Source: Microcoleus sp. FACHB-831 (GTDB lineage: Bacteria > Cyanobacteriota > Cyanobacteriia > Cyanobacteriales > FACHB-T130). From it: a DNA stretch of 64,000 nucleotides. Below the pieces are notes generated by a model, which was given only the letters and a program-made list of their open reading frames with translations, was not told the origin of the DNA and ran no database searches. Of the stretch, positions 5,253-63,942 are shown in pieces (the stretch's first letter is position 1; the number at the start of each line of letters is the position of its first letter). Location: NCBI RefSeq assembly GCF_014695585.1, contig NZ_JACJON010000068.1:1-64000 (forward strand), read 5' to 3'. The position numbers and the translations under genes were made by a program.

Positions 5253-7946
5253 ATGGCTGGGGAACCTGGAATTAAAGTCGAGAAGCATCGTTCACCCTTT
5301 CACAAGGATATTAAGGTAAAACCCAAGGAGCTACTTACGTCACTGGGTAAGGCAACGATCAATGGTTTTTTCTTGAAGTGGGATGACCTTGCTGAAAATG
5401 GGGTTGAGGTTTTGGCATCCCTTGGACTAGAGGCAAAGCCTGGAGAAATTGCTAGTTTGCTGATTTTACGCTCTCTCATCCAGGCAATACGGAATTTGTT
5501 AGACGAAAATAAAGAACTGCTACTCAAGAAGGCAGACAATCCTAAGACTTTGTACAAAGAGCTAGATTCGTCTTTAGAAAATGGGGAATTGGTAATTGAC
5601 AAAGACTTTTTTCAGCGTCCCGGAAATTTGCCTATTGTTCAAGCCGCTAAGACTGGATTTGCCAAGTGGTTAGAGGAGTTTGTTGAGAAGAAGGTTGAGG
5701 CAGACAATATTAGCAGTCGTCTTCCTGCTTACTTTGTCTTTGCCCTGAATGAGCAGTGGCGGACTCGTTCACAAGACTATGCTGCCTTAAAAGAGGTACT
5801 GGATACACCTTTCACTCAAGCTACTGAACGAGAGCAGGGATGGTTACGATATCGGGCATGGCTGCAAAAGCGGGTTGAAGAACCGATGTTCTTAGAAGCC
5901 TTCAGCCTGAAACAGGTCTACGTGCCTTTACGAGCCTACTATGAGCGTCAGCCGAAGCTTCAGCCGGAGAAGAAACTAGAACTAGGCATTAATGAAGGGA
6001 AAGGCCATGAGCGAGTTGCCGTTGACCTCAATACTGAACTGGAAAAGTGGTTGCAGGAAGCGAAGCCTGATGATGCCATCCGCTTAATTAGTGGAGATCC
6101 AGGTAGTGGCAAGTCTTCGTTTGCCAAAATCTTTGCCGCTAAACAGGCAGAAAAAGGGGAAATTCCAGTTCTGTTGATTCCCCTACACTTATTTACACCC
6201 TCGGATGACTTGGTTAAAGCCGTGGGGGAATTTGTGCAAGTTGAGGGTTTCTTGCGCCACAATCCTATGGATCGAAGTGACGGCGAAGAACGATTGCTGA
6301 TTATCTTTGATGGCTTGGATGAGCTATCGAAGCAGGGCAAAATTGCCGAAGAAATTGCTAAACAGTTTGTGGAAGAAGTAAGGTCTAGAGTTTCGCAATT
6401 TAATCACCATAAAACCCGATTGCAGGTTTTGCTAAGTGGACGAGAAGTGTCAGTACAGGCGAATCGCAGCAAATTTCGGGAACTGCATCAAACTTTGCAT
6501 ATTATTCCCTATTTTGTAACAAAAGAAGAGAGAGAAGACGCAAGTAACAACTATGTTGATGAGCAAACGTTGCTGGAGCAAGATCAACGGCAAATTTGGT
6601 GGCAGTCCTATGGCGAAGCTAAAGGCAAAGAGTACACAGGCTTACCTCCAGAATTGGACAACCCAAATTTGGTTGAGATTACAGCTCAACCGTTGCTGAA
6701 TTATCTGGTTGCACTAAGCCTTGAGGGAGGTAAGTTGCAATTTTCGGAAGAGACTAACCTCAATGAAATCTATGGGGATTTGCTAGAGGCAGTTTACGAG
6801 CGAGGGTATGAAAAGCAAGGGCATCGGGTGATTGAGGGAATTGAGAAACACGAGTTTATCGGCATTCTTGAGGAAATTGCGCTGGCTTGCTGGCATGGAG
6901 TTGGTAGGACAACCACGGTCAGTGAAATTGAAAAACACTGTGGCAATAGCGGATTCAGGGATATTTTGAACCGCTTTCAAGAAGACTCAAAATCCAGCGT
7001 TATTCGTCTGCTCACTGCCTTTTACTTTCGGGAAAGTGGCAGGTTACAGGGAAGCGAAAAAACGTTTGAATTTACCCACAAAAGCTTTGGTGAGTATCTA
7101 ACGGCAAAACGCATTGTAGAGGAAGTTCGGCTTATTCATGAAGAATTAGAGGAGCGTAAGAAAAACCGGCGCAAAGGATGTGATGAACGAGATGCCCTTG
7201 TCAGGTGGGTAACTCTATGCAATCTTTCAGAAATGGATGAATACTTATTTAAATTCATATGTGATGAAATGCGTTTGCAAAATGCATCGGATGTTCAAAA
7301 TTGGCAAAAGAGCTTGTGTCGCCTGATTGAGTTTATGCTAGTTAATGGATTACCCCTGGAAAGTCTAAGACCCAGAAATGACTTTCACATAGAACTTTTG
7401 CAGGCACGGGATACGGAAGAAGCTTTATTGGCTGTATTAAATGCCTGTGCGAGAGTGACAAAGGCAACTTCAGAAATTAAATGGCCGTATCGTAATACTT
7501 TTGGTGCATGGATTTCAAGGCTGCAAGGACAGAGGGTAGGAACAGAAAATGCACTTGCCCTTGAATGTCTTAGCTTTCTCGATTTGCAAGGCTGCATTCT
7601 GCATATTAGAGACTTTATTAGTGCAAATCTTGCTTTTACTAACCTTGAGAATGCAGAACTTATTTTTGCAAATCTTCTAAGAGCAAATCTTGTAGGTGCG
7701 AATCTTGTAAGTGCGAATCTTGTAAGTGCGAATCTTGTAAGTGCGAATCTTCAAGGTGCAAATCTTCAAGGTGCAAATCTTCAAGGTGCGAATCTGTACA
7801 ACGCGAACCTTCAAGGGGCGGATCTTTACGAGGTAAAGCTTGAAGGAGCCATTCTTGAACAGGCGAATCTTGAAGGAACGATTCTTGAAGGTAAAGACAT
7901 AGCAAGCCTGACTGAAAGCTCAAATGAAGACTCAGAGGAATCTTAG
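5253..7946 (+). CDS. NACHT-type STAND NTPase with C-terminal pentapeptide repeats
   Basis: An 897-residue multidomain protein. Residues 1-260 are alpha-helical and unassigned. Walker A GDPGSGKSS is at 281-289 and Walker B LLIIFDGLDEL at 348-358. The D-x-x-D-E acidic pattern in Walker B is the NACHT signature. A helical linker follows, with EFTHKSFGEYLTAKRI near residue 615, the conserved winged-helix end of NACHT proteins. Pentapeptide repeats (ANLVSANLQGANL) occupy about 780-885. NACHT proteins are nucleotide switches that oligomerise when a C-terminal sensor binds a ligand; bacterial ones include anti-phage proteins. Here the repeats would be the sensor and the N-terminus the effector, by analogy only. 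HicA/HicB follows on the opposite strand. No membrane segment or known nuclease is visible at the N-terminus. Confidence 0.85.
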   Translation: MAGEPGIKVEKHRSPFHKDIKVKPKELLTSLGKATINGFFLKWDDLAENGVEVLASLGLEAKPGEIASLLILRSLIQAIRNLLDENKELLLKKADNPKTLYKELDSSLENGELVIDKDFFQRPGNLPIVQAAKTGFAKWLEEFVEKKVEADNISSRLPAYFVFALNEQWRTRSQDYAALKEVLDTPFTQATEREQGWLRYRAWLQKRVEEPMFLEAFSLKQVYVPLRAYYERQPKLQPEKKLELGINEGKGHERVAVDLNTELEKWLQEAKPDDAIRLISGDPGSGKSSFAKIFAAKQAEKGEIPVLLIPLHLFTPSDDLVKAVGEFVQVEGFLRHNPMDRSDGEERLLIIFDGLDELSKQGKIAEEIAKQFVEEVRSRVSQFNHHKTRLQVLLSGREVSVQANRSKFRELHQTLHIIPYFVTKEEREDASNNYVDEQTLLEQDQRQIWWQSYGEAKGKEYTGLPPELDNPNLVEITAQPLLNYLVALSLEGGKLQFSEETNLNEIYGDLLEAVYERGYEKQGHRVIEGIEKHEFIGILEEIALACWHGVGRTTTVSEIEKHCGNSGFRDILNRFQEDSKSSVIRLLTAFYFRESGRLQGSEKTFEFTHKSFGEYLTAKRIVEEVRLIHEELEERKKNRRKGCDERDALVRWVTLCNLSEMDEYLFKFICDEMRLQNASDVQNWQKSLCRLIEFMLVNGLPLESLRPRNDFHIELLQARDTEEALLAVLNACARVTKATSEIKWPYRNTFGAWISRLQGQRVGTENALALECLSFLDLQGCILHIRDFISANLAFTNLENAELIFANLLRANLVGANLVSANLVSANLVSANLQGANLQGANLQGANLYNANLQGADLYEVKLEGAILEQANLEGTILEGKDIASLTESSNEDSEES
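7681..7800 (+). repeat. 15-bp in-frame tandem repeat encoding pentapeptides
   Basis: Three identical units of GTGCGAATCTTGTAA run from 7696 to 7740. They are followed by GTGCGAATCTTCAAG and two copies of GTGCAAATCTTCAAG to 7785. Each 15-bp unit encodes one pentapeptide. Near-perfect DNA identity implies recent duplication, so copy number could vary between strains without breaking the frame. Confidence 0.9.
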
Positions 7947-59440: not shown

Positions 59441-60631
59441 TTAATGATGATGACCGTGGTCGTGGTGATGACCATGGTCGTGGTGATGACCGTGGTCGTG
59501 GTGATGATCGTGGTCGTGGTCGTGATGATGGGCTTGAGCCGCAGCCAGTTGGGGATTAACAACTAGGGCTTGCTCTGAGAACAGCGCCTCAATTTGAGGA
59601 TTAGCCCACTCAGCCGCCATTTTCAGAAATTCTGGATTGTCGTTGACGCACTTCATTTGCACGTAGGTCACTTCAGGATGACGGCGGCGCAAACCATGAA
59701 TTATGTGGTCAACATCCAACAAAGTTTCGTGATTTTCTGTAGCAAAGCCAATCGGCATGTAGACAAGCGCTGTCGCACCCAATTGAATTAGGTTTTCCGA
59801 AGCTTGATTGGCATCTGGTTGAGTCCATTCAATCAGCGGCGTGTCGTGGTTAAGCCAACCAACGGAAATTAGAGGATACTTGTTAATCAGCTTATCCCTT
59901 ACTTTGTCGTAGAGCGCTTGGCTTTCGGTGATGCCAGAGGTAAAGCCTTTTGCCTTGTGGGGACAACCGTGATTCATCAGCACGATACCAGTTTGGGAAG
60001 GCAAGTGCGCCACTGTCAAATCGCGGGCAATTTTCTCCTCGACCATTTGAGCCAGCAGATCGATGTAAGCTGGTTCGTTGTAGAAGGAGGGGATGTAACG
60101 CTGCCCTTTAACCCAGTGTTCGCTACCATCAACCAGTTGGGCTAAAGCGTTGTTGACTTGCTCTACAGCAATGCCGCTGGTGAAGATGGAATCTACCACC
60201 AAGAGGGGATAAATCAGCAGTTTGTCGAAGCCTTCAGCTTTGATTTCGGCGAGGACTTGTGAGGGGAGGAAGGGGGCGCAGAAGTTGAAAGCTTTGAAGA
60301 CTTTGACGCGATCGCCCCACTTTTCTTGTAAATTCTTTTCAATACCAGCCCGCTGCTGTTCAAAAATGGCGTTGTGCGGTGAAATAAAATTACCGTGCTG
60401 GTGGCTCCACTCGTGTAAGTCAAAAATTGCCAGCAGCTTCGCCAGAGGTGGATACAGCCAGGTTGGTACGGGCGCAAACTTAGCCGTGAGTAGATTTAAA
60501 GCTTGTTCGTTGTAGTTGGCGAAGTCTTCGTAACTTTCTACTTCGCCGTAGCCCATCAGCAAAACTGCTACCCTGTCGTTACCAGAGCTAGCGTTGAATG
60601 TTTGTTGTACTTTTTCCGGGGTGGCAACCAC
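59441..60631 (-). CDS. ferrochelatase-like protein with histidine-rich tail
   Basis: A 396-residue class II chelatase-like protein. Residues 20-340 have the repeated ferrochelatase fold: VAVLLMGYGEVESYEDFANY, KLLIYPLLVVDSIFTSGIAV, GIVLMNHGCPHKAKGF (a chelatase-type N/H motif) and ALVYMPIGFATENHETLLDV, where the H/E pair matches the ferrochelatase metal site. The tail has 20 His, 6 Asp and 3 Gly in the last 29 residues (HHHDHG units), like the metal-storing tails of some CbiX-type chelatases. The metal could be Co, Ni or Fe; the main hemH is presumably elsewhere. The start is GTG 60631, with GAGGA upstream; a longer TTG frame to 60769 starts inside a TTGACA hexamer. Confidence 0.72.
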   Translation of the reverse strand: MVATPEKVQQTFNASSGNDRVAVLLMGYGEVESYEDFANYNEQALNLLTAKFAPVPTWLYPPLAKLLAIFDLHEWSHQHGNFISPHNAIFEQQRAGIEKNLQEKWGDRVKVFKAFNFCAPFLPSQVLAEIKAEGFDKLLIYPLLVVDSIFTSGIAVEQVNNALAQLVDGSEHWVKGQRYIPSFYNEPAYIDLLAQMVEEKIARDLTVAHLPSQTGIVLMNHGCPHKAKGFTSGITESQALYDKVRDKLINKYPLISVGWLNHDTPLIEWTQPDANQASENLIQLGATALVYMPIGFATENHETLLDVDHIIHGLRRRHPEVTYVQMKCVNDNPEFLKMAAEWANPQIEALFSEQALVVNPQLAAAQAHHHDHDHDHHHDHGHHHDHGHHHDHGHHH

Positions 60632-60861
60632 GTCGCATTCCTCAACTTGAGTAATTTCTAAAGCAGAGTGGAGAGCCGGGTCATAGCATTGTTGTTTGGC
60701 TTCAGTCCCTTGAAGCGCCACTCCTGCTTTTATAGGGTAACATCCCCCCAGTAGGGATATGCTTGTCAACCTTGCCCAGGAATCACTACTATTACATTCG
60801 TTTTTCTTATAAAATTCATCCTCCAGAAGATTTAAACATTAACAGGAGCGGACAGCCGCGT
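60632..60861. other. upstream region of the chelatase
   Basis: The minus strand carries TTGACA at 60769-60764, a likely -35 box. If the chelatase starts at GTG 60631, a leader of about 100 bases with several short complementary words (CCCTACTGGGGGG, GGAGTGGCGC) lies between. A metal- or cofactor-sensing leader is possible, but it did not match cobalamin or other riboswitch cores that I know. Confidence 0.3.
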
Positions 60862-63800
60862 TTAGCGGGATACGTTAACGCGATCGCGCCCCTCCTGTTT
60901 AGCACGATAAAGCGCCGCATCAGCCGCCTCGATCACCGCCCCACCCGTCGTGCCATGATCTGGAAAGACTGCCACCCCCAGCGAGAGGGTAATGCAACCG
61001 AGACTCTGACGGCGATGAAGCAAATTCAGGTGCTTAACCCCTTCCCGGATTTGCTCGGCTCTTTGAGAGGTTATTTCTAGAGAAGCTTCTGGCAAAATCA
61101 GCGTAAACTCCTCTCCCCCGTAGCGACAGGCAATATCTGAACCCCGGACGTGTTTGTTGATAAACATCCCTAATTCCCGCAGCACGGAATCGCCTGCCTC
61201 GTGACCAAAGGTGTCATTAAATCGTTTAAAGTGGTCAACGTCTAGCATGATCACGCCTACACTTTGGTTCTGGCGGGCTGCTCGATGTATCTCCCGTTCT
61301 AGAGATTCTTCGAGGTAACGACGATTAAATAAACCCGTGAGCGAATCGCGGATGCTCTGCTGCTTGAGAGCTTCGTGCAATTTTAAGTTTGCCAGCGCCA
61401 AAGCAATATGTTCGGCAACCGTTACAGCTAGCTGTTGTTTTGCTTCTGTAAATAGTCCCTGGTGTTGCGAACATAAATACAGCACGCCCAACGCTTCCCC
61501 CTGTGCCATCATGGGGACGCAGAGAAAGTCACTGCTTGATGAGTCCGGGTGGATGTGCTTGCATGGCAAACTACCGCGATCGGATGAAACAAAATGCGAG
61601 TGTCCGCGTCGCAGCGCCCAACATTCATTAGGTGTAAACAATTTGTGGGTATCGAGCGTCTCGTCACCCCAGGTAGCAACAGCCTCAACTAGGGTTTGTG
61701 AGGAACTAATAACAAACACCGCACCAGATACATCTGGGAATAGAGGCTGTACCAATCGAGCGATCGCGCTATGAGCTTCTTCAATCGTCAAACAAGCTTG
61801 CAGAATATCGCTCATTTCAGCCAACAGCACAATTTCGCTGTTGCGTTGTTCCAGTTCGTTCACCCAACTTGTGAGTTTTTCATTAGCAGCACGCAACGCC
61901 TCCTCAGTCTGCACTTGCTCGGTAATATCGCGCAGAATGACGGTAAATATTTTTTCGTCTTCCAATTCAAGTTGCGAAATCGATGCTTCAGCGGGGAACT
62001 CAGTACCATTTTTACGACGACCAAAAATCTTGCCCCGTTCGCCCATCTTCCTCGCTAGCCCGCTAGATTTGGAATATTCAGCAATATGCTGATAATGAGC
62101 AGAAGCACAACGCTCTGGCAACAGCAAGCTCAGTGGTTGATTTAAAACTTCTAGAGCATTGTACCCAAAAATCCTTTCTGCCCCTTGATTGAATAGCGTG
62201 ATCTGTTGGGTTTGATTGATGGAAATAATCGCATCTGAGGCAATATCGAGAATCGCAGCCAGACGGATACTCGAAGCAATTAGAGCTTCTTGTACTTTCT
62301 TTCGTTCTGTGATGTCTGTATTGATTTTGAGAACTTCTATAGGCCTGCCGCGCAAGTCTCGTTTCACTGTCCAACGACTAGCGATCGCAATCGAGGAACC
62401 GTCTTTTTTACTGTCGATTAGTTCGCCTTGCCAATATCCATGCTGCAAAAGAAATTCGTTTATTTTTGCTTGTGGTTTCGGAAATTGCGTTCGCAGTAAT
62501 GTATTGATTTCTTTTCCCAAAGCCTCGGCTTTCGTCCATCCATACATTTCCTCTGCACCGCGATTCCAAAAAGTAATTATATTTTTTAAGTCGAGAGTGA
62601 CGATCGCATCGTGAGCAAGATCTAGCAGTTCGGCCTGGTCTTGTAATTTCTTATCAGCGCGATCGCGCTCGAATAGTTGGTATTCTAGCTTTTCATTAGC
62701 GTGCTTTAATTCTTTGGTACGTTGCACAACTCTATTTTCTAAATCATCTTTAGCTTTTTGCATTCCTGCAAAAGCCTGCTTCCGACTTGATATGTCTTCT
62801 ATAATTACAACAAAATACTTTGGCTCGCCTGTCGCCGTGCGTATTAACGATAGGTTGAGATTAACCCAAGCGTGGGAATCGTCTTTGCGGATGTAGCGGG
62901 TTTCTATTAAGTAATTGCAAGCCTTGCCAGCTAATATCTGACGAATGCCCTCAAGGATGATATCGATGTCGTCAGGATGGGTAATATTTTGAAATTTTAG
63001 CTGTAATATTTCGGCAGCAGTGTAACCAAGTATTTCGCAAAGTTTTGGATTAGCCAACATCCACTTACCATCTAACGACATATGTGCCATACCTACAGTG
63101 GCTTGGTTGAATGTGGCGCGGAATATTTGCCCGCTTTCTTGCAGCGTTTCCTCCATTCTCTTGCGAGTAGTAATATCTTGGGCTATGACTATTCCGGCAT
63201 AAATTTCTCCCTGTTCGTTTTTTACCGGAAGTGTATGTATTTGGTAAATACAGTCAGCGTAGGCTAGTTCTAATATGGTTGCCTCTCCGGCTAATGCTGC
63301 TCGATAATTTGGCTCAAGCGCCGCACAGGTTTCGGGGGGGAATGTTTCCCAAATCGTTTTCCCTTCCAATTGCTCTTTTGAAAGACCAACTTCTGTTAAT
63401 CCTTTACCGCCAGCCCTAGTGCAACGCAGATCTAGATCGAATAATAAGACTGCGCCGTTAGGAAAATTTTTGACTAGGGTGCGGTATTGTTCTGTACTTT
63501 TGCGAAGTTCTGCTTCTGCTGGCTGTCGGTGTATTATTTCACTTTCCAGTTTTCGCGTTTCAACTGCCAGACTCGGAAAGGCTAGTGCTTTGGGCAGCAA
63601 TAATATTAACTGCACGGCTGTGCAGGCTAAGATTATGGCGGCGATCGCCAGGCAGATACCCGACAGCCAGTAGCTAGGATGCCACAGCGTCGAAACTTCC
63701 AGTATGTGAATAGTGCCACAAGCGACGCTCAAGGTGCTAAGTAGCAACAATATCCCTCTGTATGGGAAATCCCCGCGCTTGCGAAGAAAATAAACTATAG

Positions 63801-63942
63801 TTAAGGCTATTAAATAATAAGCAAGTGCAATTAAAGATGCAGATATGATATGCACCCACGCTAACTGTGGCGGCCATTGAGAGCAAATACTATAAGGGAT
63901 TAACTTTCCTGAGACAAAAAGATCGTAGAAAAATTTCTGCAT
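60862..63942 (-). CDS. ethylene-receptor-like membrane domain, PAS repeats, GAF and GGDEF (diguanylate cyclase)
   Basis: A 1026-residue sensor. Residues 20-125 form three membrane helices resembling plant ETR1: SQWPPQLAWVH, AYYLIALTIVYFLRKRG, FPYRGILLLL and ACGTIHILE, so the copper-ligand pair Cys/His is kept (C75, H79). Four PAS domains follow (about 145-275, 276-395, 435-555, 560-690), linked by helices, then a GAF domain (about 705-850). The GGDEF domain ends the protein, with RYGGEEF and the inhibitory I-site RGSD just before it, so it should make c-di-GMP with product inhibition. No EAL domain is present. The position matching ETR1 Asp25 is Ala35, so ethylene binding is uncertain. Confidence 0.88.
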   Translation of the reverse strand: MQKFFYDLFVSGKLIPYSICSQWPPQLAWVHIISASLIALAYYLIALTIVYFLRKRGDFPYRGILLLLSTLSVACGTIHILEVSTLWHPSYWLSGICLAIAAIILACTAVQLILLLPKALAFPSLAVETRKLESEIIHRQPAEAELRKSTEQYRTLVKNFPNGAVLLFDLDLRCTRAGGKGLTEVGLSKEQLEGKTIWETFPPETCAALEPNYRAALAGEATILELAYADCIYQIHTLPVKNEQGEIYAGIVIAQDITTRKRMEETLQESGQIFRATFNQATVGMAHMSLDGKWMLANPKLCEILGYTAAEILQLKFQNITHPDDIDIILEGIRQILAGKACNYLIETRYIRKDDSHAWVNLNLSLIRTATGEPKYFVVIIEDISSRKQAFAGMQKAKDDLENRVVQRTKELKHANEKLEYQLFERDRADKKLQDQAELLDLAHDAIVTLDLKNIITFWNRGAEEMYGWTKAEALGKEINTLLRTQFPKPQAKINEFLLQHGYWQGELIDSKKDGSSIAIASRWTVKRDLRGRPIEVLKINTDITERKKVQEALIASSIRLAAILDIASDAIISINQTQQITLFNQGAERIFGYNALEVLNQPLSLLLPERCASAHYQHIAEYSKSSGLARKMGERGKIFGRRKNGTEFPAEASISQLELEDEKIFTVILRDITEQVQTEEALRAANEKLTSWVNELEQRNSEIVLLAEMSDILQACLTIEEAHSAIARLVQPLFPDVSGAVFVISSSQTLVEAVATWGDETLDTHKLFTPNECWALRRGHSHFVSSDRGSLPCKHIHPDSSSSDFLCVPMMAQGEALGVLYLCSQHQGLFTEAKQQLAVTVAEHIALALANLKLHEALKQQSIRDSLTGLFNRRYLEESLEREIHRAARQNQSVGVIMLDVDHFKRFNDTFGHEAGDSVLRELGMFINKHVRGSDIACRYGGEEFTLILPEASLEITSQRAEQIREGVKHLNLLHRRQSLGCITLSLGVAVFPDHGTTGGAVIEAADAALYRAKQEGRDRVNVSR

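Follow-up and report, generated by a model that had tools for sequence, protein, structure and literature searches.

A predicted diguanylate cyclase of Microcoleus sp. FACHB-831 with an exchanged sensor: an ethylene-receptor-like membrane domain lacking Asp25 and Lys91

The 64,000-nucleotide stretch analysed here (the window; positions 1 to 64,000 of contig NZ_JACJON010000068.1 of Microcoleus sp. FACHB-831) encodes near its end a 1026-residue protein that joins an ethylene-receptor-like transmembrane domain (ETR1_N) to four PAS domains, a GAF domain and a GGDEF diguanylate cyclase domain. The gene, defined by its open reading frame and by Pfam matches, occupies 60862..63942 on the minus strand, as do all of its features given below; an initial annotation of this DNA had its coordinates, strand and length right. 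The ATG is preceded by AAGGGG, a plausible ribosome-binding site, and a promoter and terminator scan returned no more signals than it did in shuffled sequences. The ETR1_N domain (residues 27-121; 63580..63864) matches PF25487 with 97.4 bits against a curated cut-off of 27 (E=5.9e-28), which is far above chance level, and no family besides ETR1_N exceeded its cut-off for this domain in the profile search, in agreement with the initial assignment to the ETR1 type. AlphaFold2, run on an 88-row alignment, places helices at residues 25-55, 62-84 and 91-121 (predicted to be transmembrane) and a coiled coil at 125-149, with a mean predicted local distance difference test score of 88.8. The copy of the PDB that we searched holds no solved structure of the ETR1_N family, and the best Foldseek match had E=0.75.

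The cytoplasmic part comprises the four PAS domains and the GAF domain (residues about 164-857; 61372..63453), followed by the GGDEF domain (residues 859-1026; 60865..61368), which matches PF00990 over residues 864-1021 with E=4e-51. The cyclase motif RGSDIACRYGGEEF begins at residue 933 and contains the GGEEF A-site, with the RxxD inhibitory site (I-site; here RGSD) five residues N-terminal of it. With both sites intact, the protein is predicted to produce cyclic di-GMP (c-di-GMP), as had been proposed at the outset; Pfam found no HisKA or HATPase domain in it.

We compared the membrane domain with ETR1 position by position; in the ETR1 reference used, D25, I35, P36, I62, C65, H69, K91, T94 and S98 match the letters in the papers cited here. 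Seven ETR1 residues are needed for ethylene binding (PMC6682694), with C65, H69, I35, P36 and I62 named among those required, while T94 is assigned to signal transmission and S98 has a moderate effect on binding (PMC6586836). Mutation of D25 or C65 eliminates ethylene binding in AtETR1, and in a model of Azhar et al. 2023, cited in the same paper, D25 holds H69 in position for copper and is in contact with the output-related residue K91 (PMC11819568). In the Microcoleus protein the position of Asp25 is taken by Ala35 (63838..63840) and that of Pro36 by Ala46 (63805..63807), and the Cu(I) ligand motif C75-G-T-I-H79 (63706..63720) aligns with Cys65 and His69; both the presence of the copper ligands and the two alanines had been noticed in the initial annotation. 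The alignment adds six further replacements to these, namely Phe58 by Leu68, Phe61 by Leu71, Ile62 by Ser72, Lys91 by Leu98 (63649..63651), Thr94 by Ala101 and Ser98 by Leu105. Three of the seven ethylene-binding residues of ETR1 are therefore replaced (Asp25 by Ala, Pro36 by Ala and Ile62 by Ser), and Asp25 and its modelled partner Lys91 have both become nonpolar. Apart from the copper ligands, Tyr32 (Tyr42 here), Ile35 (Ile45) and Gly66 are kept. Tyr32 was reportedly counted among the seven required residues of ETR1 by Wang et al. in 2006. Ahead of helix 1, canonical bacterial domains (L001-L067) carry a nearly invariant FIPHGHCYLW, which reads LIPYSICSQW here, such that of the HGHC motif only the cysteine (C20, periplasmic) remains and both histidines are gone. 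In the canonical domains, the His-Gly-His-Cys motif could be a second metal site or a site of copper entry.

The extent of this divergence was judged against 154 distinct ETR1_N domains (L001-L198), nearly all of them cyanobacterial. Position 25 is Asp in 134/154 and Asn in 12/154; the Microcoleus protein is the only one with Ala (1/154), and likewise the only one with a cysteine adjoining the Lys91 position (Cys97). Of these domains, 134 retain Cys65 and 139 retain His69, which bears out the expectation that both ligands would be conserved among relatives. Across 56 columns conserved to at least 85% in 107 canonical domains, the protein deviates at 22 and keeps 34, while for canonical domains the median number of deviations is 2 and the highest is 11. 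Its end branch in the family tree (0.77 versus a median of 0.24, or about threefold) indicates fast divergence; the domain groups with ordinary cyanobacterial receptors, a placement without support. The initial annotation had asked whether Ala replaces Asp throughout a subfamily. We rejected this, since the alanine is a singleton and, among 292 genomes of the phylum, 60 of relatives, 391 of the order and the genome_contigs set, the closest domains are only about 54-56% identical over the domain, although very near genomes may be hidden. In BLASTP, the ETR1_N domains nearest to it (52.8% identical) belong to receptors of sister genera.

The host genome (6.42 Mb, 85 contigs) encodes eight ETR1_N proteins, of which this one scores lowest (103 bits, versus 136-154 for the others). 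The other seven all keep Asp25, Lys91, Cys65 and His69; six are histidine kinases and one is a GGDEF-EAL protein. This last protein (L108 1722-4019, contig 61; ETR1_N-PAS-GGDEF-EAL, with Ala at Pro36) is a candidate ethylene-responsive c-di-GMP enzyme, as far as its residues indicate. We do not regard c-di-GMP output as a novelty of the 1026-residue protein, as GGDEF domains already occur in 11 of 109 completely read relatives, seven of the 11 with Asp, Lys, Cys and His intact. Two very divergent ETR1_N-GGDEF proteins (L146 1040-2791 and L148 1062-2054), with His at position 25 and Ile or Val at position 91, perhaps form a distinct cyclase-linked branch. Many cyanobacterial ETR1_N paralogues (L069, L074, L075, L077, L140, L071, L073 and others) keep Asp25, with Cys65 replaced by Gly, Trp, Arg or Ser, or His69 by Pro, Gln or Tyr; these are apparently copper-less pseudo-receptors, which probably arose repeatedly.

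Positions 25 and 91 vary together across the family. Leaving the Microcoleus protein out, 119 domains have Asp25 with Lys91, 14 have Asp25 without Lys91, two have Lys91 without Asp25 and 14 have neither, the commonest alternative combination being Asn25 with Arg91. The loss of the one with the other ranks first among 1843 pairs of conserved columns by a phi coefficient with average product correction (APC), which adjusts for each column's overall tendency to change, and tenth by raw p-value. Greedy pairing on a maximum-likelihood tree gave 12 disjoint pairs, of which eight were concordant and none opposed (sign test p=0.008), or seven concordant and none opposed when the Microcoleus protein was removed (p=0.016); the tree is poorly resolved, and its supported branches alone leave three pairs, too few for a test. 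From these statistics the two residues appear to be functionally linked, in agreement with the proposed Asp25-Lys91 salt bridge, and both halves of the link are missing in the 1026-residue protein. A substituted Cys6 is likewise never found together with an intact Cys65, but as proof of a copper relay this coupling is weakened by eight relatives that lack the N-terminal motif (gaps) and retain Cys65.

The remainder of the protein has a different history from its membrane domain. Residues 256-1026 (60865..63177) are orthologous, by BLASTP and synteny, to cyclases of sister genera (L100, L101, L102), with 44-60% identity: 60% to the cyclase of one genus (1205 or 1210 residues, two genomes) and 44% to the 1080-residue cyclase of another, rising to 81% for the GGDEF domain alone. 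These cyclases share a PAS-GAF-GGDEF arrangement and adjoin the same ferrochelatase/CbiX-like gene, FMN reductase and FtsH. In the third sister genome, the FMN reductase is not among the open reading frames listed, and the gene on the opposite side, with a CPGIHxP start, is common to both loci; synteny extends over both flanks within a 377-kb contig. The ferrochelatase/CbiX-like neighbour in the window (59441-60769) has a long His/Asp-rich C-terminal tail (HHHDHGHHHDHGHHH). Residues 1-255 match neither of the sister-genus N-termini, which Pfam identifies as unrelated extracytoplasmic sensors of the dCache-HAMP and CHASE types (the CHASE match being weak, E=4e-4). The PAS domain that follows ETR1_N (residues 133-262) is closest, at 61%, to the PAS domain of a kinase receptor of the same genome (L106).

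Just past the end of the window, on the same strand and 0.3-0.5 kb upstream of the cyclase gene, lies a relic of a CHASE-type N-terminus (contig 68, about 64232-64469; L113 6233-6470). It consists of two neighbouring pieces, collinear and each in its own reading frame, that match residues 35-77 (42%) and 80-114 (49%) of the CHASE-type protein, with a joint E of 5e-11 over the intergenic stretch, E=6e-6 for one piece alone over 16 kb, and no hits in 300 shuffles. No remnant of a dCache-type N-terminus was found upstream, only the CHASE type being matched. The broken relic indicates that the locus formerly encoded a CHASE-type sensor, and the alignments and gene order together show, as far as such comparison can, that the old N-terminus was replaced by an ETR1_N-PAS module, the scar of the exchange being still present. 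Beside the relic (L113 about 6465-6595) there is a tandem duplication of roughly 50 bp (CCAAGACTAGGTAGCG.TCGCTTTACCGCTTGGACTTCCTCTAACTGCAACCCTGG).

The reading that we favour, and consider probable, is that of a membrane-bound diguanylate cyclase with a swapped sensor, in which the ETR1_N domain would have no high-affinity ethylene sensing and would act mainly as a dimeric anchor, perhaps with copper bound. A PAS-GAF-GGDEF module at a conserved locus would have exchanged its CHASE-type sensor for ETR1_N and a PAS domain, after which the membrane domain would have lost its original chemistry, with neither high-affinity ethylene binding nor an Asp25-Lys91 switch. Because both would be missing, the three-helix dimer could serve chiefly to keep a cyclase under PAS/GAF control at the membrane, perhaps with Cu(I) bound, and the cytoplasmic PAS and GAF domains, together with product inhibition acting through the RxxD site, would determine the c-di-GMP output. 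It is the loss of Asp25 and Lys91, taken with the history of the sensor swap, that favours loss of ethylene sensing. Three observations weigh against this reading. The retention of Cys65, Gly66, His69, Tyr32, Ile35 and C20 exceeds what a pure anchor needs. The order-wide, relative and GTDB scans found no orthologue of the ETR1_N domain. Losses affect six of 10 literature-defined functional sites and 16 of 46 other conserved columns (p=0.17); we rejected the idea that they are concentrated in the pocket, and the pattern of loss by itself is thus no proof of lost ligand binding.

Several of the same residues can be read in favour of a re-purposed copper sensor, which we consider possible but distinctly less probable than the anchor. 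Such a protein would hold Cu(I) on C75 and H79, perhaps with Cys97 as a third ligand, and would sense copper, redox state, O2, NO, CO or another small ligand, signalling without the Asp25-Lys91 switch. The kept Cys65, Gly66, His69, Tyr32 and Ile35, the singular Cys97 and the kept N-terminal cysteine, given that Cys6 is never substituted where Cys65 is intact, are all consistent with it. However, with 34 of the 56 conserved columns intact in any case, there is nothing unusual in the survival of both Cys and His; the HGHC motif has neither of its histidines, and Asp25, which in the cited modelling positions His69 for copper, is gone. As the changes are common to no relative, selection for a new metal site is not demonstrable. 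The initial annotation had likewise raised copper binding with a different small ligand, or the sensing of light or redox state; a different ligand is possible, though nothing positive points to a new one. A stronger form of the idea, in which the domain was re-tuned after the swap into a copper-centred, ethylene-blind sensor that bypasses Asp25-Lys91 through C75/H79 and Cys97 and is wired to c-di-GMP, seems to us unlikely; if true, it would be a second, non-ethylene sensory use of the ethylene-receptor fold.

Quite improbable, on the residues at hand, is a protein that is still an ethylene receptor, with lower affinity and a c-di-GMP output. It would fit the family membership, the copper ligands and the existence of relatives that combine intact sites with a GGDEF output, but D25, P36 and I62 are all replaced, and ETR1 that has lost D25 no longer binds ethylene (PMC11819568). 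With seven copies in the same genome that have Asp, Lys, Cys and His intact, a further receptor is unnecessary. Least probable of all is an assembly chimera or a gene heading for loss, as might be suspected from a singleton with a fast-evolving N-terminus and relic DNA upstream, for the 1026-codon frame is intact through the junction, the catalytic and inhibitory sites are conserved, the GGDEF domain keeps its close identity to sister genera and both flanks are syntenic inside the contig.

Ethylene receptors and their relatives are among the closest known counterparts. ETR1 and ERS1 of Arabidopsis and SynEtr1 (Slr1212) of Synechocystis share with the 1026-residue protein an N-terminal three-helix ETR1_N domain with the Cys/His copper motif. 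The Microcoleus protein differs from them in lacking Asp25, Pro36, Ile62, Lys91, Thr94 and Ser98 and in having a diguanylate cyclase where they have a histidine kinase; its GAF domain matched generic models only, and none of its domains was recognised as a cyanobacteriochrome. AzoEtr1 of Azospirillum brasilense, also a bacterial ETR1_N protein, has the equivalents of ETR1 D25, K91, C65 and H69 (PMC11819568). It functions as a two-component receptor together with a response regulator, and its laboratory mutant D35A carries the very change found here. Cyanobacterial ETR1_N-GGDEF(-EAL) proteins (for example L108, L194 and L125) likewise join the domain to c-di-GMP enzymes but, unlike the 1026-residue protein, keep Asp25, Lys91, Cys65 and His69.

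The protein can be seen as nature's version of the D25A mutation made in ethylene receptors in the laboratory, one in which Lys91, the modelled partner, is lost as well, and the seven site-retaining copies in the same genome provide internal controls. The coupling of positions 25 and 91 across the family lends independent evolutionary support to the proposed Asp25-Lys91 switch. At this locus a c-di-GMP signalling protein has had its sensor replaced, and the remains of the former one can still be read; if the ETR1_N domain still binds copper, copper binding would be separable from ethylene sensing in this family.
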